Assembly: GCA_021204045.1 (NCBI GenBank)
Contig: JAJQAA010000008.1
Location: 1 to 50,390 of the forward strand
DNA: 50,390 bases
Direction: 5' to 3'
From: Clostridiales bacterium
GTDB taxonomy: Bacteria; Bacillota; Clostridia; Lachnospirales; Lachnospiraceae
In this document: positions 28,201 through 48,576 of the stretch, piece by piece
Position numbering within the stretch: position 1 is the stretch's first letter
Layout of the letters: every line of letters starts with the position of its first letter
Position numbers and translations under genes: made by a program
Notes under the pieces: model-generated
The model's database searches: none
What the model saw: the letters and a program-made list of their open reading frames with translations, nothing else
Told to the model about the DNA's origin: nothing

Positions 28201-28328
28201 AGTTGGAAAAGTAAAATAATGAAAATTAATCAATCATAAAAAAATTATATAAAATGATGTGCGATGCTCCAAACATGATTAAGCAATATTTATATAAAAA
28301 AAATTTATATATCATATATTTGGTAAAT

Positions 28329-28357: not shown

Positions 28358-28430
28358 GATTAATGTAAAATTGCACAGAAAAAAATAGAAAGTAACTCGA
28401 TGTGGACAAAGGATGCAAAGGAGGTTATAT

Positions 28431-29696
28431 GTGAAAAAAACAATTGTTGAGAAGATCATTGCGAATCATGCCGGAATGGAAGAAGTATATCCAGGTGATA
28501 TTGTGGATGTACGTGTAGACCGACTGATGATCAACGATTCTAATGGACCAACAACATTTAAAAATTTTAATGAGCTTGGTGCTAAGGAGATTCGGAATCC
28601 GGAAAACATTCTTGTCGCGATTGATCACCGTGTTCCACCGTGGGAGGCGAAACAGGCGGATAATATAAATTTCTGTCGTACATTTTGCCGGGAGCATAAA
28701 ATGACCGGGTTTAGAGAGATCGGACGTAATGGTATTGGACATCAGATGATGTGCGAAGGGTTTGTCCGGCCTGGTGAGATTGCCGTAGGCACGGATTCAC
28801 ATTCTACTATGTATGGTGGAATGGGAGCTCTGGGATGTGGCATAAACTCGGCAGATGCTGCTGTTATTATGGCAGAAGGAACAATGTGGATGATGGTGCC
28901 AGAAAGTTGCCTTGTTACACTTAAGGGGCGTCCGAGAAAGGGGGTTACAGCAAAGGATATAGCATTGAAGCTTCAAACGCTGGCTTCGGTTGATCACTTC
29001 ATCTATAAAGCAATTGAGATCACAGGCGATTATGCGCATGAGATGAGTGTAGCAAGCCGACTGGTAATTGCTAACATGTTGTGTGAGACAGGCGCTAAAT
29101 GCGGTATTTTACCGCCAGATCAGATTGTAGCGGATTATCTTGGCGAAGGCGTCTGTACGCTTGCCTCTGATCCGGGGGCAGAGTATTCGGAATATTATGA
29201 GATTGATCTGGATGATCTGGAACCGGTACTGGCCTGTCCTCATGCTACTAATAATGTTAAAACTGTTAGCGAAGTAGAAGGAGTTAAAATCAACCAGGCG
29301 TTTCTTGGATCCTGTACAAATGGACGGATAGAAGATTTTTTGCAGGCTGCCGAAGTATTGCGTGGCCGTAAGGTTCATCCAGAAGTGCGTTTGATTGTTG
29401 TTCCTGGCAGTCAGAATGTCTATTTGGAAATGACTCGTATGGGATTGACTGAGCTGTTTGTGGAAAGTGGTGCTATGGTATTGAGCTCTGGCTGCGCATC
29501 CTGCGGAGGTTTTGGTCCCGGAGTTATCGGAAGCAATGAAGTGTGTATATCTACTACGAACCGAAATTGGCAGGGGCGCATGGGTCCGAAATCCTCTTCG
29601 GTATATCTTGGCTCCGCTTATTCCGTAGCAGCAGCGGCGGTTGCCGGAAAAATAGAATCGCCATGGAAATATCTGGCAGAGAGGAGCAAAATTTGA
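28431..29696 (+). CDS. Aconitase-superfamily hydro-lyase, large subunit (LeuC/HacA-like)
   Basis: Members add or remove water across C=C of di/tricarboxylates using a [4Fe-4S] cluster. The 421-residue product has the family motifs GTDSHSTMYGGMGALGCGI near 118, GSCTNGRIEDF near 289 (first Cys ligand) and SGCASCGGFGPG near 349 (second and third Cys ligands). Length fits the archaeal-type two-subunit isopropylmalate/homoaconitate/dimethylmaleate group. The start is GTG at 28431 with AAAGGAGG 7-8 bases upstream; the ATG at 28413 would place the ribosome-binding site inside the gene. The small subunit overlaps by four bases. Exact substrate unknown; leucine genes are absent, so a catabolic hydratase is more likely than isopropylmalate isomerase. 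Confidence 0.88.
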   Translation: MKKTIVEKIIANHAGMEEVYPGDIVDVRVDRLMINDSNGPTTFKNFNELGAKEIRNPENILVAIDHRVPPWEAKQADNINFCRTFCREHKMTGFREIGRNGIGHQMMCEGFVRPGEIAVGTDSHSTMYGGMGALGCGINSADAAVIMAEGTMWMMVPESCLVTLKGRPRKGVTAKDIALKLQTLASVDHFIYKAIEITGDYAHEMSVASRLVIANMLCETGAKCGILPPDQIVADYLGEGVCTLASDPGAEYSEYYEIDLDDLEPVLACPHATNNVKTVSEVEGVKINQAFLGSCTNGRIEDFLQAAEVLRGRKVHPEVRLIVVPGSQNVYLEMTRMGLTELFVESGAMVLSSGCASCGGFGPGVIGSNEVCISTTNRNWQGRMGPKSSSVYLGSAYSVAAAAVAGKIESPWKYLAERSKI

Positions 29697-30226
29697 ATAC
29701 TACATTTTCCGGAAAAACGTATGTGACGGGTAATAATGTTACAGCATACCAGATTTCCTACAATACGCGTTGGAAAGAATGCGGAACAGATGCCGAAGCA
29801 TTGGGACAGTGGCTGTTTGAACCGATTATTCCTGAAATTGCCGGTATTCCCAATGGATTTAAGGATAAGGGTTATGAAGTGGTTGTTTCTGGTGTGGATT
29901 TTGGCGGCGGTTTTAAGTCCAACGACCATCCGGTACTGACAGTAAAGGGTGGAGGCATCAAACTGATAATTGCTGAAAAATTTAACAGGATCTTTTTCAG
30001 AAATGCGATTAATCTGGGGATGCCCGTTATCATTTGTCCTGGGATTTTGGAGATGGCTCATGAAGGTGATATTCTGGAAGGGGATATTGCTACTGGAGAA
30101 GTAAAGAATTTAACGACCGGGATGATGATACAGGGAAGGCCGTTGAGTGGAAGAGCCTTAGACCTTGTGACAGCGGGTGGGCTATTACCTTACTGGAAGA
30201 AAAAACTGAACGAAAAGAAAAAGTGA
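29693..30226 (+). CDS. Aconitase-superfamily hydro-lyase, small subunit (LeuD-like) with altered active-site loop
   Basis: The 177-residue product is the swivelling domain that completes the active site of the large subunit at 28431-29696. The family core is recognisable (VKGGGIKLIIAEKFNRIFFR and NAINLGMPVI, then DLVTAGGLLPYW at the end). However, the loop that normally reads GSSREHAP, with the catalytic Ser and a substrate-binding Arg, reads GGFKSNDHPV here. It also lacks the YLRT-type N-terminal loop of isopropylmalate isomerases. Start is TTG at 29693, overlapping the upstream TGA; an ATG at 29663 is possible but lies deeper in the large-subunit gene. The changes imply a different substrate or mechanism. 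Confidence 0.78.
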   Translation: MNTTFSGKTYVTGNNVTAYQISYNTRWKECGTDAEALGQWLFEPIIPEIAGIPNGFKDKGYEVVVSGVDFGGGFKSNDHPVLTVKGGGIKLIIAEKFNRIFFRNAINLGMPVIICPGILEMAHEGDILEGDIATGEVKNLTTGMMIQGRPLSGRALDLVTAGGLLPYWKKKLNEKKK

Positions 30227-30252
30227 TATTAAATAGAAGGGAGATATAAGTA

Positions 30253-31368
30253 ATGAAAAAATTAAGACGGGTTTGTAATGTTTTGGTTTCTTTTGGTTTA
30301 ATGAGTTTGCTTGCGGGGTGTGGCGGTGCGTCTACTCCGACAAGTACAGCTGCTCCGACAAGTACAGCTGCTCCAACTGAGGCAAGTACGGCTGCTCCGG
30401 CAGAGACGGATACAGAGACTCCTGCCAGTAATGTATCTTCAGAAAATACTGGGTATGTCTATGAGCCGATTGAAAAAAAGGATTATACGTGGGGGACATC
30501 CGGTACTTCCGGAACGAACTATATTGTAGGTGCCGGCATTGCAGATGTTGTCAATAAACAGGCTAGCAGCGCAAATTTCCTGGTACAGTCTACCGCAGGT
30601 GCAACGGAAAACCTGGCTCTGATGCTTAATGGTGAAATGGACTTCGGGTATATGAGCGCTAACAGCATTTATAACGGTTACCATCAGACCGATTATATGG
30701 CTGATCGTGTACCGGAGCTATATTTATACAATGTAGTAATAACAACGCATGGTTCCAGCGGACATATGCTGGCACGTGTAGATAGCGGAATCAATAGTTA
30801 TTCAGATCTTAAAGGAAAAACAATTTGCACAGGGACTACTTCGGTGGAAGGACATACCGTTTGTGAAGCACTGATTTCTACTTATGGTATTGATGTTGAG
30901 TCGGATATGACCAAAGTATGGCTGAGTCAGGACGAAGCGATGACTCGACTGCAGGATGGTGAGATAGACGCTGTGTATCTGAATGCCGGTTATCCAATTG
31001 CCGCTTTCACTAATGCTATTGTTGCCAGCCCGGGTACCTATACGTTGATTTCCCCTGATATTGAGAATCTTGAGCAGGTAAAAGATCAGTTTCCCTATTT
31101 AAGTATTACGGAGATTCCTGCTGGCACCTACCCTGGCATCGATTTCAGTGTCAATGCTTTGCGGACCGCCATATCGGTGGTTACACCTGTTGAAACTCCT
31201 GCTGCAGTTACTTATGAACTTGCCAAGTATGCTTATGAAAATTGGTCTGAGATTCAGAATGTACATGCTGCTTTATTGGAAACAGATGCGGATGATCTGC
31301 CAAAAGCTGATATACCGCTGCATCCGGGTGCTCAGGCATATTTCCAAAGCATTGGTTTAGTTGATTAG
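30253..31368 (+). CDS. TAXI-family TRAP transporter solute-binding lipoprotein
   Basis: The 371-residue product captures a substrate outside the membrane for the fused TRAP permease downstream. It has a lipoprotein signal with lipobox SLLAGC near residues 18-23, and a Thr/Ala/Pro linker built from an 18-base repeat. The TAXI domain follows, with the diagnostic GTSGTNYIVGAGIADVVN near 84, STAGATENLALMLNGEMDF, and SYSDLKGKTICTGTTSVEGH near 175. TAXI proteins bind glutamate, 2-oxoglutarate or other carboxylates where known. GGGAGAT precedes the ATG. Its position after a hydro-lyase supports a polycarboxylate substrate. Confidence 0.92.
   Translation: MKKLRRVCNVLVSFGLMSLLAGCGGASTPTSTAAPTSTAAPTEASTAAPAETDTETPASNVSSENTGYVYEPIEKKDYTWGTSGTSGTNYIVGAGIADVVNKQASSANFLVQSTAGATENLALMLNGEMDFGYMSANSIYNGYHQTDYMADRVPELYLYNVVITTHGSSGHMLARVDSGINSYSDLKGKTICTGTTSVEGHTVCEALISTYGIDVESDMTKVWLSQDEAMTRLQDGEIDAVYLNAGYPIAAFTNAIVASPGTYTLISPDIENLEQVKDQFPYLSITEIPAGTYPGIDFSVNALRTAISVVTPVETPAAVTYELAKYAYENWSEIQNVHAALLETDADDLPKADIPLHPGAQAYFQSIGLVD
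30340..30399 (+). repeat. 18-base tandem repeat encoding the lipoprotein linker
   Basis: Units ACAAGTACAGCTGCTCCG at 30340-30357 and 30358-30375 differ by one base. A third, diverged unit follows after six bases (30382-30399). They encode TSTAAP-type repeats between the lipidated Cys and the folded TAXI domain. Copy number probably varies between strains. Confidence 0.8.
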
Positions 31369-31394
31369 ATATTTACTACAAATGGGAGGTTACT

Positions 31395-33419
31395 GTGTTA
31401 ATGAAAGATAAAAAAGACTTCCTGATACAAAAAGTAACTGTTCCAACGGCAGAATCAGAGAAGGATACGATAAACGTAATACCAGATGAGGACGATGTGG
31501 CGGAAGCGGTGTTATTGAATCAGAAGGGTCGATTTAGTCCGATTAATATTTTGGTATTCTGCATTGTGATTCCTTTAGCATGTTTCCATCTTTATACTGC
31601 GTATTTTGGTGTGCTTGACAGGTATTTCCAGGTTGGAATTCACTGGATGGGAATTGGTACGATTTTAATTTTGACCAGACCTTACAATTTTAAAATTGGC
31701 AGGGTTCCTGTTGGGAAGATTCTGGACTGGACACTGATTGTCCTCAATATTGTTATTTGCATCCATATGATGATGCTGAGCAATCGATTAGTGGATATGC
31801 CTGGATCATATACCCAGCTTGATATTGCTATAGGAGTTTTAATGATTCCGGTGGAATATCTGATTACGTATAAGGTTACAGGAAAGATTTTACCGATCAT
31901 TTGTACATTGTTCATTTTGTATGCATTTTTAGGACATAATTTTTCGGGTTATCTTTCCACAACGCAGTTTTCTTTCAAGAGAATTGTAACGACTCTTTAC
32001 GTTAGTCAGGATGGTATGTTTGGCAGCAATTTGATGATTCCTGCACGTTATTTATTTTTGTTTTTGTTGTTTGGCGCTATTATGACGATAACTGGTGTTG
32101 GTCAGTTTTTCGTTGACCTGGCCAATTCTGTTGTAGGGCGAATTCGTGGCGGTCCGGCACAGGCTGCAGTTTACTCCAGTATGCTTATGGGGATGGTTAG
32201 CGGTTCTGGACCAGCTAATGTGGCTACAACGGGTACGTTTACAATTCCGTTGATGAAGAAGACAGGGTATAGCGCAGCAGATGCTGGTGCGGTGGAAGCA
32301 GTTGCTTCCGCAGGGGGAATGTTTATGCCTCCTATTATGGGTCAGGCCGCATTCCTCATGTCTCAGATGACTGGTATAGAATACGTTGTAATTGCTACCG
32401 CAGCTGCTATCCCTGCTTGCCTGTATTATTTCTGTCTGTCTTTTGTATTATATTTTATTGCCCGCAGAGATCGTTTCCCAAAGCCGGATAAAAATTCTCT
32501 TCCCAAATTGTGGCCGACTTTTCGATCTAGATGGTATTATATTGCGCCGGTAGTTACGATTATTTATTTTATTTATAATAACTACAGTCCGCAGAAAGCG
32601 GTCTTTTACGCAATTATTGCCGCGCTGCTTGTTTGCCTGCTTTTTGAACGGAAACGTTTAACCTGGGGTATCTTTTATGGAGCGGTACGAAAGGCAGCAA
32701 TATCCTGTGGGCCAATGGCTTCTTGCTGTATGATGTCGGGAGTTATTATGTCCATGATCAATTTGACTGGATTGGGATTAAAAATCAGCACTATTATTAG
32801 TACTATTGCTGGTGGAAATCTGATGATTGTCCTGATTCTGACGGCATTTGTTTCCCTGCTTTTGGGTATGGGAATGCCCGCTTCAGCGGCGTATGTTGTG
32901 TTGGCTATATTGCTGTGTCCCGCCATTATTAATATGGGAGTACCGACAATAGCAGCGCATCTATTTGTCCTGATGTTTGGAGTGATGTCTTCCATTACAC
33001 CTCCTGTGGCAATGTCTATTTATACCGCCAGTGGTATTGCAAAATGCGGTGTATGGGAGTGTGGCGGACGTGCTATCCGGTTTGCCTGTGTTGGTTTCCT
33101 GGTTCCGTTTATTTTCTGCTTTGACCAGTCCCTGTTATTGATGGGAACCACGATTGATATTGTAGTAGCGGTTATCACTGCTATGAGCGGTTGTGTTATT
33201 ATGGGGACGGTGCTGGGAGGGTGGTTTATCCGGGATTTGAACTTCCTGTTGCGTCTGCTTTTGGTTCCATGTGCGATTGCTCTCTTTGTCAGTGGATCTG
33301 GTTCTGCCATGGTGAATATTGTTGGATTTATTGCGGCTGTAATAATTTATGTTATCAATTATTCATTGCATAGAAATCTGATGGAGGCGGACATCGAAAG
33401 AAAATCAATGGATACATGA
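31395..33419 (+). CDS. TRAP transporter fused permease (DctQ-DctM type, TAXI system)
   Basis: The 674-residue protein fuses the small 4-TM and large 12-TM TRAP subunits, as usual for TAXI systems. An N-terminal hydrophilic stretch (1-45) is followed by helices throughout. The large-subunit signatures are GGPAQAAVYSSMLMGMVSGSGPANVATTG (family pattern) near 254-282, EAVASAGGMFMPPIMGQAAF near 301, and LLGMGMPASAAYVVLA near 493. It imports the ligand of the binding protein at 30253-31368 with a Na+ or H+ gradient. Start is taken as GTG 31395 (GGGAGG six bases upstream); ATG at 31401 is the alternative. Confidence 0.93.
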   Translation: MLMKDKKDFLIQKVTVPTAESEKDTINVIPDEDDVAEAVLLNQKGRFSPINILVFCIVIPLACFHLYTAYFGVLDRYFQVGIHWMGIGTILILTRPYNFKIGRVPVGKILDWTLIVLNIVICIHMMMLSNRLVDMPGSYTQLDIAIGVLMIPVEYLITYKVTGKILPIICTLFILYAFLGHNFSGYLSTTQFSFKRIVTTLYVSQDGMFGSNLMIPARYLFLFLLFGAIMTITGVGQFFVDLANSVVGRIRGGPAQAAVYSSMLMGMVSGSGPANVATTGTFTIPLMKKTGYSAADAGAVEAVASAGGMFMPPIMGQAAFLMSQMTGIEYVVIATAAAIPACLYYFCLSFVLYFIARRDRFPKPDKNSLPKLWPTFRSRWYYIAPVVTIIYFIYNNYSPQKAVFYAIIAALLVCLLFERKRLTWGIFYGAVRKAAISCGPMASCCMMSGVIMSMINLTGLGLKISTIISTIAGGNLMIVLILTAFVSLLLGMGMPASAAYVVLAILLCPAIINMGVPTIAAHLFVLMFGVMSSITPPVAMSIYTASGIAKCGVWECGGRAIRFACVGFLVPFIFCFDQSLLLMGTTIDIVVAVITAMSGCVIMGTVLGGWFIRDLNFLLRLLLVPCAIALFVSGSGSAMVNIVGFIAAVIIYVINYSLHRNLMEADIERKSMDT

Positions 33420-33529
33420 TCTGTGTTTATAGTTAAGGTAAGTTAGTCTGATGATATGGAAGGCGGTATATTAGCAGAAGAATATGCCGTCTTCAGAACA
33501 ACAAAAAGAAAATGAGGAGGAGTTCTATC

Positions 33530-34297
33530 GTGAGTGATACAAATAAAATGGATTCAAATGCTCCTGTGGTCAAGAGTATTTTAGTGGTTTCCGCCCACAA
33601 TACAGACTGGATTTGGCGCTGTAGTGGTACGGTTGCCCGTTACAAAAGACTTGGCGCTGCCGTTCATATTGTCTGTTTGTCTCCGGGTGTTCGTGGTGAA
33701 AGTAATAAATTGTTGAAAGAAGATCCGACATTGACGCCAGAAGCAATTAAAGAGATGCGTGTACAAGAAGCATTGGCTGCTGGTGAATCCTTAGGATGTG
33801 ACAGTACACAGGTCTGGGATTACGATGATTGTATGCTTGAATGCAGCAAGGATGTGGTGATGCAGCTAGCTGGTCGAATGAGAGAGGTGAGGCCGGATAT
33901 TGTTATTACCCATGACCGAAATGATAGCCGTAACTGTGATCATGAAACCGCTGCTAAGATTGTGTGGCAGGCATCTTTGATAGCAACTCAGCGTGGTATT
34001 GACATCAATGGACTCGTTCCATGCGCCGGCAGAATGTTGATTTTTGGATTTGAACCGGGACAAACGGAGTCCAGCGATTATAAGCCCAATATTTATATCG
34101 ATATTACAGATGTATGGGATGAGAAGATGAAAGCAATGATGTGTGTGCAGACAATGCGCGGGACACCGGATACCCATATTCGTGTTAATACTCATCGCGG
34201 CTGGCAGGGAAAAAACAACGGATTACGGAAAAATATCAAATTTTGTGAGTCATTCAGTGCATTCTGGCCAATGGTCAGTGATCGGTTCCCTGTTTAA
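33530..34297 (+). CDS. PIG-L/LmbE-fold protein, GalB-like (putative 4-oxalomesaconate-type hydratase), copy 1
   Basis: GalB of Pseudomonas putida is a zinc-dependent PIG-L-fold enzyme that hydrates 4-oxalomesaconate in gallate degradation. This 255-residue product shares its distinctive features. The PIG-L metal motif appears as VSAHNTDWIWRCSGT near 24 (AHxxD kept, but DW instead of DD). CLSPGVRGESNKL, ITHDRNDSRNCDHETA (third His) and a C-terminal HIRVNTHRGWQ follow. Start is GTG 33530 with GAGGAGG upstream; the in-frame ATG at 33512 lies within the ribosome-binding site. A paralogue is at 37775-38500. Hydratase function is inferred from family resemblance; a deacetylase is the alternative. 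Confidence 0.8.
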   Translation: MSDTNKMDSNAPVVKSILVVSAHNTDWIWRCSGTVARYKRLGAAVHIVCLSPGVRGESNKLLKEDPTLTPEAIKEMRVQEALAAGESLGCDSTQVWDYDDCMLECSKDVVMQLAGRMREVRPDIVITHDRNDSRNCDHETAAKIVWQASLIATQRGIDINGLVPCAGRMLIFGFEPGQTESSDYKPNIYIDITDVWDEKMKAMMCVQTMRGTPDTHIRVNTHRGWQGKNNGLRKNIKFCESFSAFWPMVSDRFPV

Positions 34298-34325
34298 AAA
34301 ATGTGATAGATTTGAGGAGGCTATA

Positions 34326-35030
34326 ATGGCTATTGGAAAAAGAGTATATATGAAACGTAAACTTGCGGATCCAGAGGTTGTCAAAGGTTTTGTTGGAATA
34401 CCGGCATCTAATGTGGGAGATACGTTTGAACGTATTGGATGCATGAATCCTCGCATCAGGCTAATGTCGAATCCCAGGGGAGTATCCTGGTCAGGCAATG
34501 CTTTGACTATTAAAACCAGAGGCGGGGACAATATGCTGATCCACTATGTTCTGGAGAATATTGCGAAAGAGGGAGATTTTCTGATCGTTTCTAACGAGGG
34601 TTGCCCAACCCGTTCCATAATCGGCCAGAATATGGCGTGTTCCATGGAGACGTTAAAGCTGGCAGGGATTGTAATTGACGGCCCTATCCGTGATATTGAC
34701 GCGATAAGAGAGATGACTCTTCCTGTATATGCTACAGGAGTCTGCCCAGGAGGTCCATTCAAAGATGGACCAGGCGAGGTAAATGTGCCGCTGGCTTGTG
34801 GAGATATCGCAGTAAATCCAGGTGATGTCATAGTGGCCGATCCGGATGGAATTTGTGTTGTTCCGCGTCTGGATGCGAAGTATGTCCTGGAGCAGGCGAA
34901 AAAGAAGTTTGAGATCGATCAGGCTGGTCTCGCGGCTGCAAAAAACGGAACAAATTATGGGAAACAGAAGTGGTCTAAGGCATTAAATGATAAAAATTAT
35001 GAAATTATTGATGACTGCTATGGCTGGTAA
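34326..35030 (+). CDS. RraA-like/HMG-CHA aldolase family protein (LigK/GalC-like)
   Basis: Class II aldolases of this family cleave 4-carboxy-4-hydroxy-2-oxoadipate to pyruvate plus oxaloacetate, or 4-hydroxy-4-methyl-2-oxoglutarate to two pyruvates. The 234-residue product has GNALTIKTRGGDNMLIHYVL near 57. The diagnostic segment GIVIDGPIRDIDAIREM near 118 holds the Arg-Asp pair that binds pyruvate and metal. It also has PGEVNVPLACGDIAVNPGD and VADPDGICVVP. ATG 34326 follows GAGGAGG; long in-frame upstream sequence lies inside the preceding gene. Sitting right after a GalB-like gene, it probably performs the retro-aldol step. RraA-type RNase E inhibitors lack this context. Confidence 0.85.
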   Translation: MAIGKRVYMKRKLADPEVVKGFVGIPASNVGDTFERIGCMNPRIRLMSNPRGVSWSGNALTIKTRGGDNMLIHYVLENIAKEGDFLIVSNEGCPTRSIIGQNMACSMETLKLAGIVIDGPIRDIDAIREMTLPVYATGVCPGGPFKDGPGEVNVPLACGDIAVNPGDVIVADPDGICVVPRLDAKYVLEQAKKKFEIDQAGLAAAKNGTNYGKQKWSKALNDKNYEIIDDCYGW

Positions 35031-35089
35031 GTAAGGGAAAATGTTGTTTCAATTAAGCGATTATTATATTTGAGAGGAAGAGTATAAAT

Positions 35090-35932
35090 ATGATTATTGA
35101 TATCCATCCACATATTATTTCTGATGATGTTGAAAAGTATCCGATCACTCCATTGGGAAACAAACGTTCGAAATGGTCTGAGGCGAGAGGATCTTTAACT
35201 GCGGAAAAGCTGTTGGAGGCTATGAATGCTGCGGGGGTTGACAAAGCTGTTGTGGTACATTCCACTACAACTTATGGATATAATTGCAATTATCTTGCGG
35301 ATTCTGTTGCCAAATATCCGGATAAGCTTCAGGGTGTTGGCTGCGTCGATTTTCTGGCGGAGGATGCTGTAGAGAAGCTTAATTATTGGATTAATGATCG
35401 TGGTCTTATTGGAATTCGTTTGTTTTCCGGCGGCGGCACATCCAGTGCCCAAGCGGATTGGATTATCGATCCCCGGACATTTCCTGCATGGGAGTGGGCT
35501 CAGGAAACCGGGACGCCAATTGTAATGCAGTTGCGCGGACCGAGTCTCGGAACACTTCGTATTCTTATGGATAAATTCCCCAGGCTTACACTCTTGCTGG
35601 ATCACGCTTCCTCTCCGAACCTGGAAGACGGGGCACCTTATGCGGAACTGGCACCACTTCTTTCATTGGCTGTTTATCCGGGCTTAAATATCAAGGTTTC
35701 TACTATTAATATGCGAAAGTCTGCCATGGGAAAATCCACTCCGCAGGACTTTATGAGGATTTTGAAAGATTCGTTTGGAGCAGAACGGCTACTGTGGGCT
35801 TCTAATTTCCCATCATCAGATGGTTCACTCAGTGAACACGTTCAGTTGGCTCTGGATGCCTGCTCTGAATTCAGTAAAGAAGATCGCGATGCATTTATGG
35901 GTGGAAATGCAAAAAGAATTTATAATCTTTAA
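35090..35932 (+). CDS. Amidohydrolase-2 family protein (LigI-like) with atypical metal site
   Basis: The 280-residue TIM-barrel protein starts with the beta-1 motif IIDIHPHII (HxH at residues 5-7) and has LLLDHASSPN near 165 on a later strand. Two canonical ligands look changed: the strand-5 His is absent (PIVMQLRGPS near 143), and the strand-8 Asp position reads WASNFPSSDGS near 240, with Asn where most relatives have Asp. LigI, 2-pyrone-4,6-dicarboxylate lactonase, is a metal-independent member of this group and belongs to the same lower pathway as GalB and LigK homologues found here. A lactonase or decarboxylase acting on a pyrone or enol polycarboxylate is a reasonable guess. Confidence 0.75.
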   Translation: MIIDIHPHIISDDVEKYPITPLGNKRSKWSEARGSLTAEKLLEAMNAAGVDKAVVVHSTTTYGYNCNYLADSVAKYPDKLQGVGCVDFLAEDAVEKLNYWINDRGLIGIRLFSGGGTSSAQADWIIDPRTFPAWEWAQETGTPIVMQLRGPSLGTLRILMDKFPRLTLLLDHASSPNLEDGAPYAELAPLLSLAVYPGLNIKVSTINMRKSAMGKSTPQDFMRILKDSFGAERLLWASNFPSSDGSLSEHVQLALDACSEFSKEDRDAFMGGNAKRIYNL

Positions 35933-35968
35933 TACATAAATTAATAAAATTTAGGAGGAACGAATAAA

Positions 35969-36835: not shown

Positions 36836-36851
36836 AAGGAGGTTGTTGGAA

Positions 36852-37739: not shown

Positions 37740-37774
37740 AATTGATAAATAAACAGGAAAGGAAACGATTGATT

Positions 37775-38500: not shown

Positions 38501-38550
38501 TGGAATGTTTGCAAAGACCGTGAGTCAGCCGTTAAAGGAAGATAAGGTTG

Positions 38551-39444: not shown

Positions 39445-39602
39445 TGAAATGTCCTCATAAACACAATGCAAATTTCTCTTTAATGATTAATTATATCATC
39501 TGTGGACGGGAAAGTAAATGGCAAATCAACCCTATTCTGCGGGCTGAATTTATATGCATAGAAAGTCAAATTATAGTAAATCAGCAGGAGGTCCCTAGTG
39601 TA

Positions 39603-39812
39603 ATGAGCAAAAATTTTGTTATTAAGTTCCGAGAAAAAAACTGCAAGCAATGCGGAATATGCTCCTATTTTTGTCCTGGAAAGGTGCTGGAACAAAGTGC
39701 AGGAAAATATCCCAGAGTAGTCCGGGCAGAAGCGTGTATCGGATGTAGATTGTGCGAAATGCGTTGTCCGGATTTTGCGATCGAAGTGGAGGTGGAAACA
39801 AGTGAACGGTGA
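39603..39812 (+). CDS. korD: 2x[4Fe-4S] ferredoxin subunit of 2-oxoacid:ferredoxin oxidoreductase (delta)
   Basis: The 69-residue protein contains two CxxCxxCxxxCP clusters: CKQCGICSYFCP near 14-25 and CIGCRLCEMRCP near 45-56. It shuttles electrons from the thiamine-diphosphate site to soluble ferredoxin. ATG 39603 follows AGGAGG. It opens the korDABC series and overlaps the alpha-subunit gene by 11 bases. Confidence 0.9.
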   Translation: MSKNFVIKFREKNCKQCGICSYFCPGKVLEQSAGKYPRVVRAEACIGCRLCEMRCPDFAIEVEVETSER

Positions 39813-40944: not shown

Positions 40945-40945
40945 G

Positions 40946-41770: not shown

Positions 41771-42300
41771 TGAAAACAGAAATCGTTTTAAGCGGAGTCG
41801 GTGGACAAGGCCTGATTTCTACAGGGGAAATTATTGGCGAAGCGGCGTCCATCTATGAAAACCTTTTTGCCACCCTGACATCCTCTTATGGCTCGGAAAC
41901 GAGAGGCACATTTACAAAATCAGATGTGATTCTGAGCGATACAAATATCAATTATCCTATTATTGAAAATCCAGATGTCATTCTATGCCTTGCGCAGGTG
42001 GCCTATGACCGATATCAGGATAAATTTCTGGATCATACACTGGTGATTTATGATACCGAACTGGTTGTGCCAGCGCCGAATGCCAGAGGACGACATATTG
42101 GTTATGCGTTTAAACAGATGAGCCTCGATTTGGGAAATCAGGCGGTGGCCAATACAATTGCTTTGGGCGTTATATTAAAACATACGGGCTTGTTGAAAAG
42201 AGAAAGCGTTGCCAGTGCGGTAACAGATCGATTTGCCGCCAAGCCGAATGTGATCGGCATTAACTTGAAGGCTCTGGATATGGGGATTTCCCTTGAATAG
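41770..42300 (+). CDS. korC: 2-oxoacid:ferredoxin oxidoreductase gamma subunit (KorC-like)
   Basis: The 176-residue gamma subunit starts TEIVLSGVGGQGLISTGEII near 3, the family CoA-site motif, and contains TLTSSYGSETRGTFTKSDV near 35. GVGGQG and SYGxExRG are diagnostic. The ATG overlaps the korB stop (TAATG), indicating coupled translation and a 1:1 complex. Confidence 0.93.
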   Translation: MKTEIVLSGVGGQGLISTGEIIGEAASIYENLFATLTSSYGSETRGTFTKSDVILSDTNINYPIIENPDVILCLAQVAYDRYQDKFLDHTLVIYDTELVVPAPNARGRHIGYAFKQMSLDLGNQAVANTIALGVILKHTGLLKRESVASAVTDRFAAKPNVIGINLKALDMGISLE

Positions 42301-42334
42301 AAAATCTGATATTCGTATCGGAAGGGAGATGTAG

Positions 42335-43654
42335 ATGATTCAGAAATATCATTCAAAATTTGTTTCTGCAGAGCAGGCGGTGAAAGCGGTCAGATCCGGT
42401 GACTGGGTAGATTATGGTTTTGGAGCCGGTTTCCCGGAATTGTTAGATGCGTCTCTGGCAGCTCGAAAGCCGGAGCTGGAAAACGTGAAGATTAGAGGCG
42501 GTCTGGTAATTCAGCCCAGAATTGAGGTAGTAGAGCAGGATCCAGAGCAGAAAGCGTTTACGTATTACAGCTGGCACATCGGCGACTATGAACGAAAGCT
42601 TCAGAGCCGGGGATTAGTGAAATTTGTACCGGTTGCTTTGCGGATGTTGCCAAATCTGTATCGTTGGCATATTCGGACGGATGTAGCTTTTGTCCCGGTT
42701 TCTCGTCCGGATAAGGATGGTTATTGTGGACTGGGTATTTCCAATTTTGCATGGCGTACGATTTTTGAAAACGCCCGGACTGTGATTTTTGAGATCAATG
42801 AGCGCTTCCCCCGGTTGCAGGGCGTAAGCGGGAGTCATCGTGTGCATATTTCTGAGGCTGATTATATTGTAGAAGGGGAGCATAAACCAATTCCCGAGCG
42901 TGTTTATCGTACACCCGGTTCAGAAGATATTGCTATTGCCAAGTTGGTAATGAACGAGATCCCGGATGGAGCGGTGTTGTCTCTGGGAATAGGAAGTGTA
43001 CCATTTGCGGTGGCCAGAATGCTGGCTGAATCTGATCTGAAAGATTTAGGCTGTTACACGGGAACAATCAGTGATGCATATCTGGACATGTATCAGGCAG
43101 GAAGATTAACCAACACCCGCAAGGAAGTTGACAAAGGATACTGCACATGGAACCTTGCCATGGGTTCGCAGGCGCTGTATGACTGGCTGGAAGATAGCCC
43201 GGAGTTGTTTTATCCCGCTGATTTGAGTTATGTCCATTCTCCGGAACGTATGGGTAAAATGAAAAATTTTATTAGTATAAACGGAGGAGTTCAGGTTGAT
43301 TTAATGGGTCAGGAAAACGCAGAATCTTCTGGAACACGCCAGCTTTCGGGAGTCGGCGGTCAAATGGATTTTCTGGAAGGCGCTTATCGTTCTGAGGGAG
43401 GCAAAGGTTTTATCTGCCTTAATGCTTCGCGAAAAACAAAGGATGGCGTGCGGAAATCGAATATTGTTCCGTTTATTCCCGAAGGGAGTACCGTCTCTGC
43501 TCCGCGAACCATGATTCAGTATGTGGCTACAGAATATGGCGTGGTAAAACTCTCTGGCCTGTCTTTGCGTGAACGTGCGGAAGCCATGATTTCGATCGCA
43601 CACCCGGATTTCCGGGAAGAGCTGGAAAACTATGCCAGAGAAAATTTCCGTTAG
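42335..43654 (+). CDS. Acetyl-CoA hydrolase/transferase family (family I) CoA-transferase
   Basis: The 439-residue product belongs to the 4-hydroxybutyrate/butyryl-CoA:acetate CoA-transferase group. Visible signatures are SGDWVDYGFGAGFPELLD near 22, SLGIGSVPFAVA near 213, INGGVQVDLMGQENAESSG near 315 (catalytic Glu within AES), and SGVGGQMDFLEGA near 337. It probably activates 2-hydroxyglutarate to its CoA ester or releases the acid product. The classical partner of HgdAB is GctAB, a different two-subunit transferase, so this would be a non-orthologous replacement. GAAGGGAG precedes the ATG. Confidence 0.88.
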   Translation: MIQKYHSKFVSAEQAVKAVRSGDWVDYGFGAGFPELLDASLAARKPELENVKIRGGLVIQPRIEVVEQDPEQKAFTYYSWHIGDYERKLQSRGLVKFVPVALRMLPNLYRWHIRTDVAFVPVSRPDKDGYCGLGISNFAWRTIFENARTVIFEINERFPRLQGVSGSHRVHISEADYIVEGEHKPIPERVYRTPGSEDIAIAKLVMNEIPDGAVLSLGIGSVPFAVARMLAESDLKDLGCYTGTISDAYLDMYQAGRLTNTRKEVDKGYCTWNLAMGSQALYDWLEDSPELFYPADLSYVHSPERMGKMKNFISINGGVQVDLMGQENAESSGTRQLSGVGGQMDFLEGAYRSEGGKGFICLNASRKTKDGVRKSNIVPFIPEGSTVSAPRTMIQYVATEYGVVKLSGLSLRERAEAMISIAHPDFREELENYARENFR

Positions 43655-43730
43655 ATAGATGATCTAAAATAAAAAAGCAGTCAGGCCGGATTTGATTGCC
43701 TTAAAAAGTATAGCAATGAGGAGGTTCGAT

Positions 43731-43939
43731 ATGTGGATGGCGGGCATAATATTAACCATTTTCCTTGTAGTATTTATCTTCCTGTTTGCCTTAAGGCAGA
43801 TATCTCAAAAAAAAGAGACATTCTTGATGTGAGCGAACAGGACTGCGCGGTAATACTCTCCGTTATTTGTGAAGAGCTTAGGGCAAGACCGGAAGAACTG
43901 CGTATTACCGTTATCAGAAAGCTGGCACAGGAGGAATGA
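43731..43939 (+). pseudogene. OadG/GcdD-like small membrane subunit split by a -1 frameshift at an A8 run
   Basis: From ATG 43731 (GAGGAGG nine bases upstream) the frame encodes one membrane helix, WMAGIILTIFLVVFIFLFAL, then RQISQKK, and stops at 43830-43832. The -1 frame, entered at the A8 run 43807-43814, continues RDILDVSEQDCAVILSVICE and PEELRITVIRKLAQEE to the stop at 43937-43939. That tail matches the conserved C-terminal segment of sodium-pump decarboxylase gamma/delta subunits. Joined, the product would be about 69 residues with normal order, though lacking most of the usual linker. The run could be a programmed slippage site, a real loss-of-function indel, or a sequence error. Confidence 0.6.
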
Positions 43940-43942
43940 ACT

Positions 43943-44182
43943 ATGAAGTATATCGTCACTATGAATGGTAATCGATACGAGGTAGAGGTTGAACGTGTTT
44001 CGCCGTTCCATCTTCTCAGCCATGAGGAAGTGGCGGCTGATATGTCTGCGCCGCCTTCCGGTATTCCGGTTCCGCAGGGGTCATCGAATGAGGCGACCGA
44101 CAGCATTGATGTGAGAAAGGAGAAGAGGCGTAATGGGAAATTATGCAATGTCGGGCTATTTCCAGAAAATGCCAAGGATTGA
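43943..44182 (+). CDS. Truncated biotin-carrier-like protein (GcdC/MmdC N-terminus only)
   Basis: The 79-residue product begins KYIVTMNGNRYEVEVERV, the standard N-terminal strand of decarboxylase biotin carriers. An Ala/Pro linker-like stretch (AADMSAPPSGIPVPQ near 33) follows. The biotinyl domain with its EAMKM site is absent: the frame instead runs 50 bases into the gcdA gene and stops at 44180-44182. It may be a decayed biotin carrier, or a non-biotinylated adaptor stub. AGGAGG precedes the ATG, and it sits between the split gcdD-like gene and gcdA. Confidence 0.6.
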   Translation: MKYIVTMNGNRYEVEVERVSPFHLLSHEEVAADMSAPPSGIPVPQGSSNEATDSIDVRKEKRRNGKLCNVGLFPENAKD

Positions 44183-45923
44183 GGGAAAGGCATTTCCATC
44201 GGCACCAGATAACGCGAATGAGCTGAAAGAGATCGAGAGAACCTTGCGTATGAAAGCCCAGCAGATGTTGGCTGCTGGGGTGTCGGATGAGAAGATTCAT
44301 ACCAGAGGACAATATACAGCCATGGAGCGGATCCTGGAACTGGTGGATGAGGGAAGTTTCCTTCCATTAAACAGTTTATATAATCCAGAAGATAATAATC
44401 AGGAGAAAATTGGAATTGTGAGCACCGGCATAGTGAAAGGTCTGGGGCGTATCGATGGGAAATGGGCAGTAATCATTGCCTCGGACAATAAAAAAATGGC
44501 AGGTGCGTGGGTTGCTGGCCAGGCGGATAATCTACTTCGTGGTTCAGATACAGCTAAGATGCTGGGCATCCCGTTAGTGTATATTTTAAATTGTTCGGGC
44601 GTAAAGCTGGATGAACAGGAAAAGGTTTATCCGAATCGCCGTGGGGGCGGCACTCCGTTCTATCGCAACGCCCAGTTAAATCAGATGGGAATCCCGGTGA
44701 TCGTAGGCATTTACGGCACGAACCCGGCGGGAGGCGGTTATCATTCTATCAGTCCGACGATTCTGATTGCCCATCAGAAAGCAAATATGGCAGTGGGTGG
44801 TGCCGGTATTGTCGGAGGTATGGATTCGAAACCCTATGTGGACGCAGAGGGCGCTCAGGGGATGATTGATTCGACCCGTATGATGAAGAACGATCCGCCA
44901 GGAAGCGTCTCCATTCATTATAATGAAACCGGTTTTTTCCGAGAGGTATATGCGGAGGAATTTGGCGTTTTGGATGGTATTCGCAAGTATATGAATATGC
45001 TGCCATCCTATGATCTGGATTTTTTCCGGGTTGATGATCCGAAGGCACCTGTGATAGCAGGAGAAAAATTGTATGATATTGTGCCTCTCAATACACGTCG
45101 CCCTTATGACATGTATAATGTTTTGGCTGCTTTGGTCGATGGTAGTGAGTTCATGGAATATAAAAAAGGCTATGGCCCGGAGATGATCGCGGGATTGGCA
45201 AAAGTAAATGGGCTTCTTGTAGGTGTGATAGCGAACCAGCAGGGGCCATTGATTATGCAGGGTTATCCAGATTATCCAGAGTATCGGGGAAAGGGTGCTA
45301 TGGGTATCGGTGGAAAACTGTACCGCCAGGGTTTGATTAAGATGAATGAATTTGTTACTTTCTGTTCCCGCGACAGAATTCCGATGATCTGGATCCAGGA
45401 TACGACCGGCATTGATGTGGACAATGAGGCGGAGAAAGCTGAGCTGCTTGGACTGGGACAGAGCCTGATCTATTCCATTCAGAATAGCGGTTTGGCAATG
45501 CTGGAAATAACTTTGCGAAAGGGAACCGCTGCTGCACATTATGTTCTGGGAGGTCCGCAGGCAAATGACAATAATGTATTCAGTATTGGAACTGCTGCGA
45601 CAGAGATTAACGTAATGTACGGAAAGACAGCAGCGGGAGCAATGTACAGCCGTCGCCTCGTGAAAGATCAGGATGCAGGAAAAGATTTACAGCCGATAAT
45701 CGATAAGATGAACGCATTGATCCAGCATTATATTGATACATCAAAACCAGAGTATTGTGCGAAAACAGGCATGGTCGATGAAATCGTAGAACTGCCGAAG
45801 CTGCGTGATTATATGATTGCGTTTACAAATGCAGCCTATCAGAATCCAAAGACGATCTGCCCGGTACATCAGATGATTTTGCCGAGGGTCTGCCGGGATT
45901 TTGACAGTCTGTATCAGAAGTAG
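44133..45923 (+). CDS. gcdA: Glutaconyl-CoA decarboxylase carboxyltransferase subunit alpha
   Basis: The subunit transfers the carboxyl group of glutaconyl-CoA to biotin, yielding crotonyl-CoA. The 596-residue product closely follows the Acidaminococcus GcdA pattern. Shared landmarks are VASDNKK-like IIASDNKKMAGAWVAGQ near 112, LNCSGVKLDEQEKVYPNRRG near 149, GIYGTNPAGGGYHSISPT near 193, GIGGKLYRQGLIKMNEF near 390, and WIQDTTGIDV near 417. It further has LRKGTAAAHYVLGGPQ near 463 and a C-terminal CPVHQMILPR. Length matches the family (587 in Acidaminococcus). A role on glutaconyl-CoA is supported by the adjacent hgdAB genes. No gcdB is present in the window. Confidence 0.92.
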   Translation: MGNYAMSGYFQKMPRIEGKAFPSAPDNANELKEIERTLRMKAQQMLAAGVSDEKIHTRGQYTAMERILELVDEGSFLPLNSLYNPEDNNQEKIGIVSTGIVKGLGRIDGKWAVIIASDNKKMAGAWVAGQADNLLRGSDTAKMLGIPLVYILNCSGVKLDEQEKVYPNRRGGGTPFYRNAQLNQMGIPVIVGIYGTNPAGGGYHSISPTILIAHQKANMAVGGAGIVGGMDSKPYVDAEGAQGMIDSTRMMKNDPPGSVSIHYNETGFFREVYAEEFGVLDGIRKYMNMLPSYDLDFFRVDDPKAPVIAGEKLYDIVPLNTRRPYDMYNVLAALVDGSEFMEYKKGYGPEMIAGLAKVNGLLVGVIANQQGPLIMQGYPDYPEYRGKGAMGIGGKLYRQGLIKMNEFVTFCSRDRIPMIWIQDTTGIDVDNEAEKAELLGLGQSLIYSIQNSGLAMLEITLRKGTAAAHYVLGGPQANDNNVFSIGTAATEINVMYGKTAAGAMYSRRLVKDQDAGKDLQPIIDKMNALIQHYIDTSKPEYCAKTGMVDEIVELPKLRDYMIAFTNAAYQNPKTICPVHQMILPRVCRDFDSLYQK

Positions 45924-45986
45924 TCTGAAGTGTGCAATTTCAGCAGAAATTGGAAACTGCATTAAGGACATTACGGGAGGGAAACA

Positions 45987-47453
45987 ATGGCGAAACAGGT
46001 TAGTCCAGGAGTACTGGCATTGCGTCAGGTGGTTGATGACGTTTATGCCGAGGCACGAGAAGCAAAAAGGAGAGGGGAACCGGTTGGCTGGTCGTCTTCA
46101 AAGTTTCCCTGCGAGTTGGCAGAAGCTTTTGGTTTATCTGTCATGTATCCGGAAAATCAGGCGGCTGGAATTGCGGCAAACCATTATGGCGAGATGCTTT
46201 GTCAGGCAGCAGAGGATCTTGGCTATGACAACGATATCTGTGGGTACGCGCGTATCAGCCTGGCTTATGCCGCGGGAAAACGGACCAGCCGTAAATATGA
46301 TCCGGAAACCGGAGAATATATTATTGATCCATCGACTGGCCGTTTGCTGAAGGATGCGGATGGCAATGTGGTAATCGATGAAACGACAGGGAAACCGAAA
46401 AAGGATCCAAAAACGCAAACGCCGTATATTGTACTGGATGATATTAATGAGATCAACGCTTTGCAGAATGGAGAAGAAAAGAACCGACGTATGGCAGCGA
46501 TTCCAAATATTAAGCAAATGCAGATTCCAATGCCGGATTTTTTACTTTGCTGCAATAATATCTGTAACTGTATGACTAAATGGTATGAAAACATTGCCAG
46601 GATGCACAATATACCATTAGTAATGATTGATATTCCATATAATAATCATGTCCTAGTAGATGATTCTTATGTAGCATATATTCGCAGTCAGTTTGATAAT
46701 GCAATCCAGAAACTTGAGCAGATCTCAGGTCGAAAATTTGACGAGAAGAGATTTAAAGAAGCCTGTGTCAACGCAAACCGTACTGCAAAAGCATGGTTGA
46801 AGGTCTGCGATTATCTGCAGTATAAACCGGCTCCCTACAGTGGATTTGATTTGTTCAACCATATGGCTGACGTTGTAACTGCTCGCGGCAAGGTGGCAGC
46901 AGCCGAAGCATTCGAACAGCTAGCTGCTGACTTAGAGAAACTGGTAAAAACAGGAGGTACGACAACTCCGTTCCCGGAGAAGTATCGTGTCATGTTTGAG
47001 GGAATTCCCTGTTGGCCGAAGCTTCCGGAGCTTTTCAAACCACTGAAAGCCAATGGCGTTAACGTCACAGCGGTTGTTTATGCCCCGGCTTTTGGTTTTG
47101 TCTATGACGACTACGACAGCATGGTGCGCGCATACTGCAAGGCTCCCAATTCTGTGTGTATTGAACAGGGAGTTGACTGGCGAGAAGGTATCTGCCGTGA
47201 TAATAAGATAGATGGCGTGCTGGTTCATTACAATCGTTCATGTAAACCCTGGAGTGGTTATATGGCTGAGATGCAGCGGAGATTTACGGCTGACCTTGGT
47301 ATCCCGTGTATTGGGTTTGACGGTGATCAGGCGGATCCGCGTAACTTTAATACTGCCCAATATGAAACCCGTGTGCAGGGGCTGGTAGAAGCTATGGAAG
47401 CAGGCAAAGGGATAAAGGAGGATAGCAATGATCGCAGAAAACCTGTTGAATGA
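45987..47453 (+). CDS. hgdA: (R)-2-hydroxyglutaryl-CoA dehydratase subunit alpha
   Basis: HgdAB removes water from (R)-2-hydroxyglutaryl-CoA by a ketyl-radical mechanism after ATP-driven one-electron reduction. The 488-residue product matches Acidaminococcus HgdA almost throughout. Landmarks are GWSSSKFPCELAEAFGLSV near 34, AEDLGYDNDICGYARISLAY near 73, CCNNICNCMTKWYENIARMH near 189, and KAWLKVCDYLQYKPAP near 271. A C-terminal HYNRSCKPWSGYMAEMQRRF lies near 421. The Cys residues in CCNNIC and RSCKPW are expected Fe-S ligands. GGGAGG precedes the ATG. It overlaps hgdB by 26 bases. Confidence 0.94.
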   Translation: MAKQVSPGVLALRQVVDDVYAEAREAKRRGEPVGWSSSKFPCELAEAFGLSVMYPENQAAGIAANHYGEMLCQAAEDLGYDNDICGYARISLAYAAGKRTSRKYDPETGEYIIDPSTGRLLKDADGNVVIDETTGKPKKDPKTQTPYIVLDDINEINALQNGEEKNRRMAAIPNIKQMQIPMPDFLLCCNNICNCMTKWYENIARMHNIPLVMIDIPYNNHVLVDDSYVAYIRSQFDNAIQKLEQISGRKFDEKRFKEACVNANRTAKAWLKVCDYLQYKPAPYSGFDLFNHMADVVTARGKVAAAEAFEQLAADLEKLVKTGGTTTPFPEKYRVMFEGIPCWPKLPELFKPLKANGVNVTAVVYAPAFGFVYDDYDSMVRAYCKAPNSVCIEQGVDWREGICRDNKIDGVLVHYNRSCKPWSGYMAEMQRRFTADLGIPCIGFDGDQADPRNFNTAQYETRVQGLVEAMEAGKGIKEDSNDRRKPVE

Positions 47454-48576
47454 ATTTATTCAAATTGCTGGGCATCCGGGACAAATGCTTTCCAGATATA
47501 AAAAAGAAGGTAAAAAAGTTATTGGTATACTTCCCTATTACGCACCGGAAGAACTGGTCTTCGCAGGTGGGATGATTCCGATGGGAATATGGGGTTCCAA
47601 CAATAAGACCATCAGTCGTGCGAAGGAATATTGCGCAACTTTTTACTGCACAATCGTTCAACTTGCCCTTGAGATGTTACTGGACGGTACAATGGATTGG
47701 CTTGATGGCATTATTACACCTACAATTTGCGATACTCTGCGTCCAATGAGTCAGAATTTCCGTGTGGCGATGAGCGGCAAGATGCCGGTTATTTTCCTTG
47801 CGCACCCACAAAACCGCTTTGGAACACCCGGCCTGCAGTTCTGTGTGGATCAGTATACAAATGTAAAAAATGAGTTAGAAAAGATTGCAGACAGGAAAAT
47901 TACTGACGAGGATATTCGTGCTGCCATCCACATTTACAATGAAAGTCGTGTTGCCCGCCGTACTTTTGTGAGGTTGGCTGCAGAGCATGCGGATGTGGTT
48001 ACCCCAGTCAGGCGGTCAGGCGTGCTGAAAGCCTCCTGGTTTATGAAAAAGGATGAATACACAGTTAAGCTCTCTCGATTAAATGCGGAACTGGAATCGC
48101 TTCCTCCCTGTCGCTGGGAGGGAACTAAAATTGTCACTTCCGGAATCATCTGCGATAATCCTCATTTGCTTGCTATACTGGAGGAAAATCATATTATGAT
48201 TGCTGCAGATGATGTCGCTCATGAAAGTCGGGCGTTCCGTACAGATGTAATGGAAGATGATGATCCCATAATGGCTTTGGCAAAACAGTTTGCTGCGATT
48301 GATTATGATGTACTTCTTTATGACCCGGCCAGCTCACAGAATCGACGCGGTGAATTTGTCGCGGATCTTGTGAAGAAAAGCGGGGCTCAGGGGCTGGTAT
48401 TGTTTATGCAACAATTCTGCGATCCGGAGGAGATGGAGTATCCTTATTTAAAGAAAGCACTGGACAGTGCTGGCATTCCGCATATCAAACTGGGCATTGA
48501 TCAGCAAATGCGTGATTTTGGGCAGGCGCGAACTGCGCTTCAGGCGTTTGCCGATGTACTGGAAATAAGCAAATAA
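47428..48576 (+). CDS. hgdB: (R)-2-hydroxyglutaryl-CoA dehydratase subunit beta
   Basis: The 382-residue partner of HgdA carries the second [4Fe-4S] cluster. Shared family features include IGILPYYAPEELVFAGGMIP near 31, SRAKEYCATFYCTIVQLALE near 61, DGIITPTICDTLRPMSQNFR near 92, VIFLAHPQ near 119, and MQQFCDPEEMEYPYLKKALD near 325. Length equals that of Acidaminococcus HgdB (379). AAAGGAGG precedes the ATG inside the end of hgdA. The ATP-dependent activator HgdC is not encoded in the window and must come from elsewhere. Confidence 0.94.
   Translation: MIAENLLNEFIQIAGHPGQMLSRYKKEGKKVIGILPYYAPEELVFAGGMIPMGIWGSNNKTISRAKEYCATFYCTIVQLALEMLLDGTMDWLDGIITPTICDTLRPMSQNFRVAMSGKMPVIFLAHPQNRFGTPGLQFCVDQYTNVKNELEKIADRKITDEDIRAAIHIYNESRVARRTFVRLAAEHADVVTPVRRSGVLKASWFMKKDEYTVKLSRLNAELESLPPCRWEGTKIVTSGIICDNPHLLAILEENHIMIAADDVAHESRAFRTDVMEDDDPIMALAKQFAAIDYDVLLYDPASSQNRRGEFVADLVKKSGAQGLVLFMQQFCDPEEMEYPYLKKALDSAGIPHIKLGIDQQMRDFGQARTALQAFADVLEISK

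Follow-up and report, generated by a model that had tools for sequence, protein, structure and literature searches.

The lower arm of the protocatechuate/gallate 4,5-cleavage pathway and the 2-hydroxyglutarate cluster of Acidaminococcus are among the described systems closest to the genes analysed here. In the parts of PMC5065237 that concern it, the model aldolase of the former cleaves 4-carboxy-4-hydroxy-2-oxoadipate (CHA) to pyruvate and oxaloacetate and cleaves 4-hydroxy-4-methyl-2-oxoglutarate (HMG) as well; Arg-123 is essential, and Asp-124 and Glu-199 bind the metal. The Acidaminococcus cluster comprises hgdAB, an activase gene, gcdA and gctAB, with gcdB, gcdC and gcdD about 15 kb away, according to the parts of PMC3035267 that describe it. 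We analysed a stretch of 50,390 nucleotides of a Clostridiales bacterium (positions 1-50390 of one contig, JAJQAA010000008.1; hereafter the window), taken from a 2.75 Mb genome that is 99.08% complete; the host is probably a lachnospiraceous anaerobe of gut type. It carries ten genes on the + strand from 28413 to 38500 (the left half), a LysR gene on the - strand at 38551-39471, and eight genes on the + strand from 39603 to 48576 (the right half), with a 478-base gap ahead of GcdA. The original prediction had read both halves as one anaerobic pathway joined at 2-oxoglutarate. All the genes that it named were found where it had placed them by profile and solved-structure searches.

We give an even chance to the reading that the left half (28413-38500) runs the lower arm of the 4,5-cleavage pathway in a form that needs no oxygen, acting on an imported acid. 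Its core is a recurrent cassette which, judged by sequence, most likely performs the hydration and aldol-cleavage steps of that pathway without oxygen. No description of this cassette was found in the literature searched, whose coverage left out most subscription journals. The core genes in the window are as follows.

33512-34297, + strand: GalB-type PIG-L protein 1, predicted hydratase (PF02585; best solved relative 5cgz, 7.5e-44; AHNTD in place of HPDD; RGES)
34326-35030, + strand: predicted RraA/LigK/GalC-type pyruvate aldolase (ATG start; PF03737; CHA aldolase 3noj, 7.9e-26)
36843-37739, + strand: DUF6282 protein, predicted amidohydrolase-fold enzyme and anchor of the cassette (PF19799, 2.7e-61, 207.1 bits against a curated cut-off of 26.8)
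37742-38500, + strand: GalB-type PIG-L protein 2, predicted hydratase (PF02585; 5cgz, 5.4e-37; AHAAD motif)

The best solved relative of both PIG-L proteins, 5cgz, is a 4-oxalomesaconate hydratase. In the alignment, the HPDD motif was present in the solved diacetylchitobiose deacetylases and absent from 5cgz. It was also absent from all 59 PIG-L rows, two of which are the window's, and each of these rows had RGES together with AHxxD or GHxxD. By their motifs, the two proteins are of the GalB type and not of the deacetylase type, and they are predicted hydratases. A role as deacetylases was rejected on the absence of HPDD. In the RraA-type aldolase, G101, H75, R123 and D124 were kept in all 52 aldolase rows, window included. 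The window enzyme has D at E199, P at T145 and Q at D102, and it scored below the NCBIfam equivalog cut-offs for CHA aldolase (135.7 versus 179 and 125.6 versus 304.5).

A contig scan with two DUF6282 queries gave 163 confirmed relatives, and the best 80 were analysed as loci (given L numbers below). Within 8 kb of the DUF6282 gene, a PIG-L gene was found in 57 of the 80 loci (directly downstream in 53), an RraA gene in 49 and both in 46. A GntR-type gene was present in 54, and the common gene order was GntR, DUF6282, PIG-L, importer, RraA. The importers of the 46 loci with PIG-L and RraA were TAXI plus TRAP in 23, TctA in eight and an MFS transporter in four; among the 31 cassettes with a TAXI-TRAP or Tct importer, a VOC-type dioxygenase gene was near only one (L065). 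The carriers include Lachnospiraceae, Oscillospiraceae, Spirochaetes, a Veillonella, a Christensenella, an Enterococcus, Bacilli, Thermomicrobia and Thermoplasmata; Fusibacter paucivorans (L072) and Geosporobacter ferrireducens (L032) are cultured bacteria with the minimal cassette. VOC extradiol-type genes occurred in seven of the 80 loci. In Thermus, Meiothermus and Brevibacillus, DUF6282, PIG-L and RraA lie beside ring-cleavage genes, which ties the core genes to the lower arm of protocatechuate/gallate 4,5-cleavage. H163, H226 and E277, a set that fits an extradiol metal triad, were kept in all eight aligned VOC rows, Thermus included. Two loci (L070 and L078) also had Rieske subunits, and L078 a flavin monooxygenase. 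The lower-pathway character that the original prediction gave to the left half is supported by the GalB-type motifs in every PIG-L row and by the recurrence of the set, which is accompanied by an importer and in aerobes has extradiol-type dioxygenase genes as neighbours. Its statement that no oxygenase is present held for the LigB type, which was not found in the genome (PF02900, E up to 1); the VOC type was not searched for genome-wide.

In Thermus oshimai pTHEOS01 (L118, 7348-15849), genes for a catechol 2,3-dioxygenase, GntR, DUF6282, PIG-L, a CHA aldolase, an NAD(P)-dependent oxidoreductase, a 4-hydroxybenzoate 3-monooxygenase and a Rieske pair stand together, and none in the set is annotated as LigI, LigJ or LigC. 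This apparently aerobic ring-cleavage set can help in assigning functions to DUF6282 and the NAD(P)-dependent oxidoreductase. What follows ring cleavage in it could be carried out by the oxidoreductase, an aldehyde dehydrogenase, DUF6282, PIG-L and RraA, which makes DUF6282 a natural candidate for the pyrone-dicarboxylate (PDC) hydrolase. H16, H18, H171, H196 and D253 (an HxH/H/H/D set) were invariant in 64 DUF6282 rows. The structure model (pLDDT 94.1) has an amidohydrolase-type fold, and hydrolases, lactonases included, dominate the fold matches listed. LigI and LigJ were not among the 50 rows listed in the VIA-align structural comparison, which excludes neither. In the tree, the DUF6282 proteins of the window and of Colidextribacter sp. 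OB.20 are sisters (100/100). They fall in a group of 28 rows from mostly anaerobic lineages, with support of 96/91 and a bootstrap that had not settled completely. No paper on DUF6282 was found in the same literature.

The neighbourhood of DUF6282 varies. A fumarase-type gene takes the place of PIG-L in L040, L043 and L044, where RraA is kept. In L044 (7584-14576; also L040 and L043) we observed a Hungatella-type cassette with a fumarase-type alpha/beta pair for PIG-L, and it includes a DUF1932 dehydrogenase. Of the 80 DUF6282 genes, 17 have a DUF1932-type gene nearby. An HpcH/HpaI aldolase was found in ten loci. Between the HpcH/HpaI aldolase and DUF6282, L075 (9028-9930) codes for a protein some 300 aa long that matched no Pfam family; members of its cluster occur in six of the 80 loci.

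Several observations weigh against the lower-arm reading. The 80 loci are not a census, and several of their contigs are short. Ten of them had none of PIG-L, RraA, HpaI and FumA, and several of these contigs are long. RraA was found in none of the ten HpcH/HpaI loci, and PIG-L was missing in nine of them; the other one (L023) ends soon after PIG-L, and the seven HpaI loci in the tree form one branch. These loci may represent a single change of pathway, which makes them weak evidence for an aldolase swap. Position 102 was D or E in 51 of the 52 aldolase rows, and the sole exception was the window aldolase with its Q. The amidohydrolase-type fold of DUF6282 does not tell its reaction. The family is also rare near the host: at E 1e-30 it was found in two of 246 genomes of the order and in five of 24 genus genomes, and both counts include the window's own genome. 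Among five DUF6282 places in other genus members, L111 had the full cassette, L112 had RraA and a 2-hydroxyacid dehydrogenase with no PIG-L match, and L113-L115 had neither PIG-L nor RraA. A second DUF6282 locus in the window's own genome (L012, 4170-14676) held two LeuCD pairs and an isocitrate-dehydrogenase-like gene with no PIG-L; it also had a TctABC-type importer, a 2-hydroxyacid dehydrogenase, RraA and a DUF6282 protein 52% identical to the window's. A distant member in genome G096 (L016) showed no PIG-L or RraA match. Because of such loci without PIG-L/RraA company, the DUF6282 family may serve several pathways.

The other genes of the left half are as follows.

28413-29696, + strand: LeuC/HacA-type hydro-lyase large subunit (PF00330, 1.1e-89; NF001614, TIGR01343 and TIGR02086 over cut-off; C301, C361xxC364)
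29693-30226, + strand: LeuD-type hydro-lyase small subunit (TTG start; PF00694, 9.8e-07; TIGR02087, 8.3e-27, below cut-off)
30253-31368, + strand: TAXI-type TRAP solute-binding protein (TIGR02122, 4.7e-52, 176.8 bits against a cut-off of 84.35)
31395-33419, + strand: fused TRAP permease (TIGR02123, 9.1e-162, 539.9 bits against a cut-off of 320.65)
35090-35932, + strand: Amidohydro_2 protein, of the superfamily of LigI and LigJ (PF04909, 6.2e-29)
35969-36835, + strand: Pht5-like protein, of the 4,5-dihydroxyphthalate decarboxylase family (weak PF09084, 8.5e-05; profile A4)

The large hydro-lyase subunit may start at ATG 28413 or at an alternative GTG at 28431, and from its sequence the LeuCD pair is of the aconitase/isopropylmalate/homoaconitase kind. 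Binding protein and fused permease both scored over cut-off and so qualify as a TAXI-type TRAP transporter. The label 'LigI-like' of the original prediction holds for the Amidohydro_2 protein at the family level (PF04909) and no further. Neither LigI nor LigJ was among the matches listed for this protein alone against the PDB. Profile A3 matched LigJ (6dwv, 1.2e-91), and profile A4, of six rows, matched 4,5-dihydroxyphthalate decarboxylase (9jp7, 3.1e-73). Neither match was taken as proof: two of the five rows of A3 are probably LigJ-like themselves and may drive its match, and so may the other rows of A4, which are 26-36% identical to the window protein.

The adjacent Amidohydro_2 and Pht5-like pair also occurs in Paraburkholderia (40% and 36% identical). 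Relatives of the two (39% and 35%) lie a few kb apart in Acidovorax, and Phyllobacterium has a Pht5-like gene with a different amidohydrolase (22%) and an RraA gene nearby. Pht5-like matches occurred in 94 plasmid records, of which three were examined, and DUF6282 matches in 47, of which two were examined. When the 80 DUF6282 loci were searched by tblastn, the Amidohydro_2 protein was matched in none and the Pht5-like protein weakly in one (L094), so that the window combines two modules. At E 1e-20, the Pht5-like protein was found in two of 398 genomes of the phylum, own included, and the other one was 27% identical.

Gene identities, the GalB-type and aldolase residues and the recurrence of the set are read from the sequences. 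From them we infer the following scheme for the substrate, the DUF6282 reaction, the accessory genes and the flow between the halves. A polycarboxylate would be imported by the TAXI-TRAP system and opened by DUF6282, perhaps together with the Amidohydro_2 protein. The GalB-type PIG-L enzymes would then hydrate a double bond, and the RraA enzyme would cleave the hydrated product, releasing pyruvate and another 2-oxo acid, which would be oxaloacetate if the substrate were CHA. LeuCD and the Amidohydro_2/Pht5 pair may widen or prepare the substrate. The right half, a 2-oxoacid:ferredoxin oxidoreductase with a 2-hydroxyglutarate-to-crotonyl-CoA module, may drain the products, and reads as a separate unit. 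The features of the right half, with the regulator that precedes it, are as follows.

38551-39471, - strand: LysR regulator, divergent from the Kor operon (LysR-type NCBIfam matches below cut-offs)
39603-39812, + strand: KorD ferredoxin-type subunit (ATG start; NF007205, 4.3e-14, below cut-off)
39802-40944, + strand: KorA (GTG start; NF006412, 9.4e-154, over cut-off)
40946-41770, + strand: KorB (NF007207, 4e-81, below cut-off; 80% identical to that of L019, Colidextribacter sp. OB.20)
41770-42300, + strand: KorC (NF006323, 5.5e-38, below cut-off)
42335-43654, + strand: single-chain CoA-transferase (TIGR03948, 430.6 bits against a cut-off of 674.8)
44133-45923, + strand: GcdA, glutaconyl-CoA decarboxylase alpha subunit (1pix, 5.3e-264)
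45987-47453, + strand: HgdA-type 2-hydroxyacyl-CoA dehydratase subunit (3o3m, 1.3e-107; NF052455 below cut-off)
47428-48576, + strand: HgdB-type 2-hydroxyacyl-CoA dehydratase subunit (NF052456, 6.1e-113, below cut-off; PF06050, 2.1e-78)

GcdA is unmistakable by its matches. The best solved relative of HgdA (3o3m) is a 2-hydroxyisocaproyl-CoA dehydratase, which is also the best NCBIfam model for both HgdA and HgdB, with the models below cut-off; specificity for 2-hydroxyglutarate is suggested because GcdA adjoins. Together the CoA-transferase, GcdA and HgdAB form a variant of the 2-hydroxyglutarate cluster already known, and little in the right half is unusual. We saw no hgdC, gcdB, gcdC/D or gctAB among the open reading frames of the right half. 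PF03977 (the gcdB type) was matched elsewhere in the genome only, by two strong OAD_beta genes; by eye, one is in an oxaloacetate or methylmalonyl-CoA decarboxylase-type cluster and one beside gyrase-type genes. The genome also holds a citrate synthase. At E 1e-60, KorB was found in two of 299 genomes of the family, own included, the other being 42% identical. A second HgdAB-type pair lies elsewhere in the genome (L013, contig C27, 10820-16864), by eye with activator-like and CaiB-type CoA-transferase-like genes, and is probably for another 2-hydroxyacyl-CoA.

In the full pathway of the original prediction, the cleavage products would pass through 2-oxoglutarate, 2-hydroxyglutaryl-CoA and glutaconyl-CoA to crotonyl-CoA, with Kor as the oxidative branch. 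This single route through both halves seems unlikely to us. Low GC content is common to both halves, and the citrate synthase and the two OAD_beta genes would suit the route. It is also favoured by Colidextribacter sp. OB.20 (L019), where KorABC immediately precedes DUF6282 and PIG-L in the same orientation (71-80% identical, gene order unlike that of the window); the eight shared genes that were compared are 67-80% identical. Kor genes were near DUF6282 in one further locus of the 80 (L084, opposite strand). However, the CoA-transferase, GcdA and HgdAB were matched in none of the 80 loci (flanks up to 10 kb). The OB.20 contig ends at KorA, and its GcdA, an activator-like open reading frame and HgdAB (67-78% identical) are on another contig. 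The opposite-strand LysR gene parts the two halves, the right half lacks visible hgdC and gcdB/C/D genes, and CHA cleavage gives pyruvate and oxaloacetate, not 2-oxoglutarate, in the portion of the source that treats it (PMC5065237). The link between Kor and the cassette therefore has some support, from one relative, and that between the cassette and the glutaconyl-CoA genes has none outside the window. The claim of one pathway was thus not supported in the form given, although a junction at 2-oxoglutarate is possible. The refuting outcome named by the original prediction, that the halves are never found together, was avoided only in part, for KorABC in OB.20 but not for GcdA and HgdAB in the 80 loci. 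Only one PIG-L match, that in L019, was found in OB.20, whose fused TRAP permease is only 35% identical. We also observed that this PIG-L gene (L019, 3546-5904) is short. A recombinase-like gene comes after it on the opposite strand, an arrangement suggestive of the entry of a mobile element.

Other explanations concern the left half itself. Without any pyrone, the same chemistry may act on another substrate, such as a citrate-like hydroxy acid or a plant 4-substituted 2-oxoglutarate (for example 4-methylene-2-oxoglutarate, which would be hydrated to HMG and then yield two pyruvates on cleavage). We consider this doubtful. Plants hold 4-methylene-glutamate, and aconitase-like or fumarase-like hydro-lyases occur in some DUF6282 loci without PIG-L. 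HMG is a substrate of the model aldolase in the part of the source cited above (PMC5065237). Yet ring-cleavage genes accompany the aerobic cassettes, and HMG gives no obvious need for an amidohydrolase-fold enzyme. DUF6282 might also act on the ring-cleavage product as a tautomerase or isomerase, substituting for GalD or LigU, and not as a lactone hydrolase; this is rather unlikely, though conceivable. Some amidohydrolase-fold enzymes are isomerases, and two loci (L096 and L097) have VOC, DUF6282, PIG-L and RraA genes with no DUF1932 dehydrogenase nearby, a set that would suffice for gallate. On the other side stand the dominance of hydrolases, lactonases included, among the fold matches listed (though a fold shows no function) and the Thermus and Meiothermus loci with a dehydrogenase that could make PDC. 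The functions could lastly be unrelated, with the PIG-L proteins as sugar deacetylases, RraA as a ribonuclease regulator and an accidental neighbourhood. Such proteins do occur in both families, but the lack of HPDD in every PIG-L row, the aldolase residues kept and the recurrence of the gene set in 46 loci make this very improbable, and sugar deacetylation, which the original prediction had named as a refuting outcome, found no support.

The genes lie in a stretch of low GC content: 45.0% in 28413-48576, compared with 52.5% in 1-27100 and 54.5% from 48942 to the window end. An acquired island is the simplest reading of this stretch. Against it, stretches elsewhere in the same genome span 48.7-55.1% GC, so that the contrast is suggestive only. 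Of the window genes that were queried downstream of tsf in stretches of ten same-genus genomes, tsf itself and a 25% LysR match were the only matches; two of the stretches extended over no more than 3.5 and 5.7 kb. Nor did these stretches yield the gene that comes after the island in the window, and an empty site was not seen. The island is a real, composite metabolic gene set. The stretch after tsf (window 27001-28413 and 48576-48942) held different genes in the three same-genus relatives listed (L156, L158 and L163) and may thus be a variable site. By eye, pyrH- and frr-like open reading frames lie about 10 kb further on in L156. One further gene stands between tsf and the island.

27140-28087, - strand: ketopantoate-reductase family gene (TIGR00745 over cut-off)

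No tRNA was found in the window and no Rfam match in 26000-50390. Promoter and terminator scans were at chance level (19 found versus 20.7 expected and 9 versus 9.5) and were not used.

Were the lower-arm reading true, Clostridia and Spirochaetes would have an anaerobic use of their own for polycarboxylic acids, run by enzymes regarded as part of the O2-dependent breakdown of lignin and tannin, and DUF6282 would have a function open to testing. A bolder and improbable extension is that anaerobes import pyrone or tricarboxylic 2-oxo acids made by aerobic aromatic degraders. DUF6282 would then be a new family of PDC-type hydrolases, hydration and cleavage would proceed without oxygen, and in this island butyrate would be the product of a fermentation via 2-oxoglutarate and glutaconyl-CoA in which a sodium-pumping decarboxylase takes part.

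The locus can be compared with three described systems. With the lower pathway of protocatechuate/gallate 4,5-cleavage (LigI, LigJ or GalB, LigK/GalC) it shares, by sequence and motifs, a GalB-type PIG-L protein and an RraA-type aldolase, and Thermus has the same genes together with ring-cleavage genes. It differs in that the hydrolase step would fall to DUF6282 or the unassigned Amidohydro_2 protein, in that an importer is included, and in that no LigB-type dioxygenase was found in the genome. With the hgd-gcd cluster for glutamate fermentation in Acidaminococcus it shares GcdA, HgdA, HgdB and a CoA-transferase (PMC3035267). In the window, no hgdC was seen, a single-chain CoA-transferase stands for gctAB, KorDABC is added and the DUF6282 cassette is adjacent. 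The fermentation of trans-aconitate by Acidaminococcus fermentans resembles the proposed scheme in that an imported tricarboxylate is fermented via oxaloacetate and pyruvate; the genes listed for it in the same parts of that source are aconitase and citrate lyase (PMC3035267), whereas the window has a GalB-type hydratase and an RraA aldolase.

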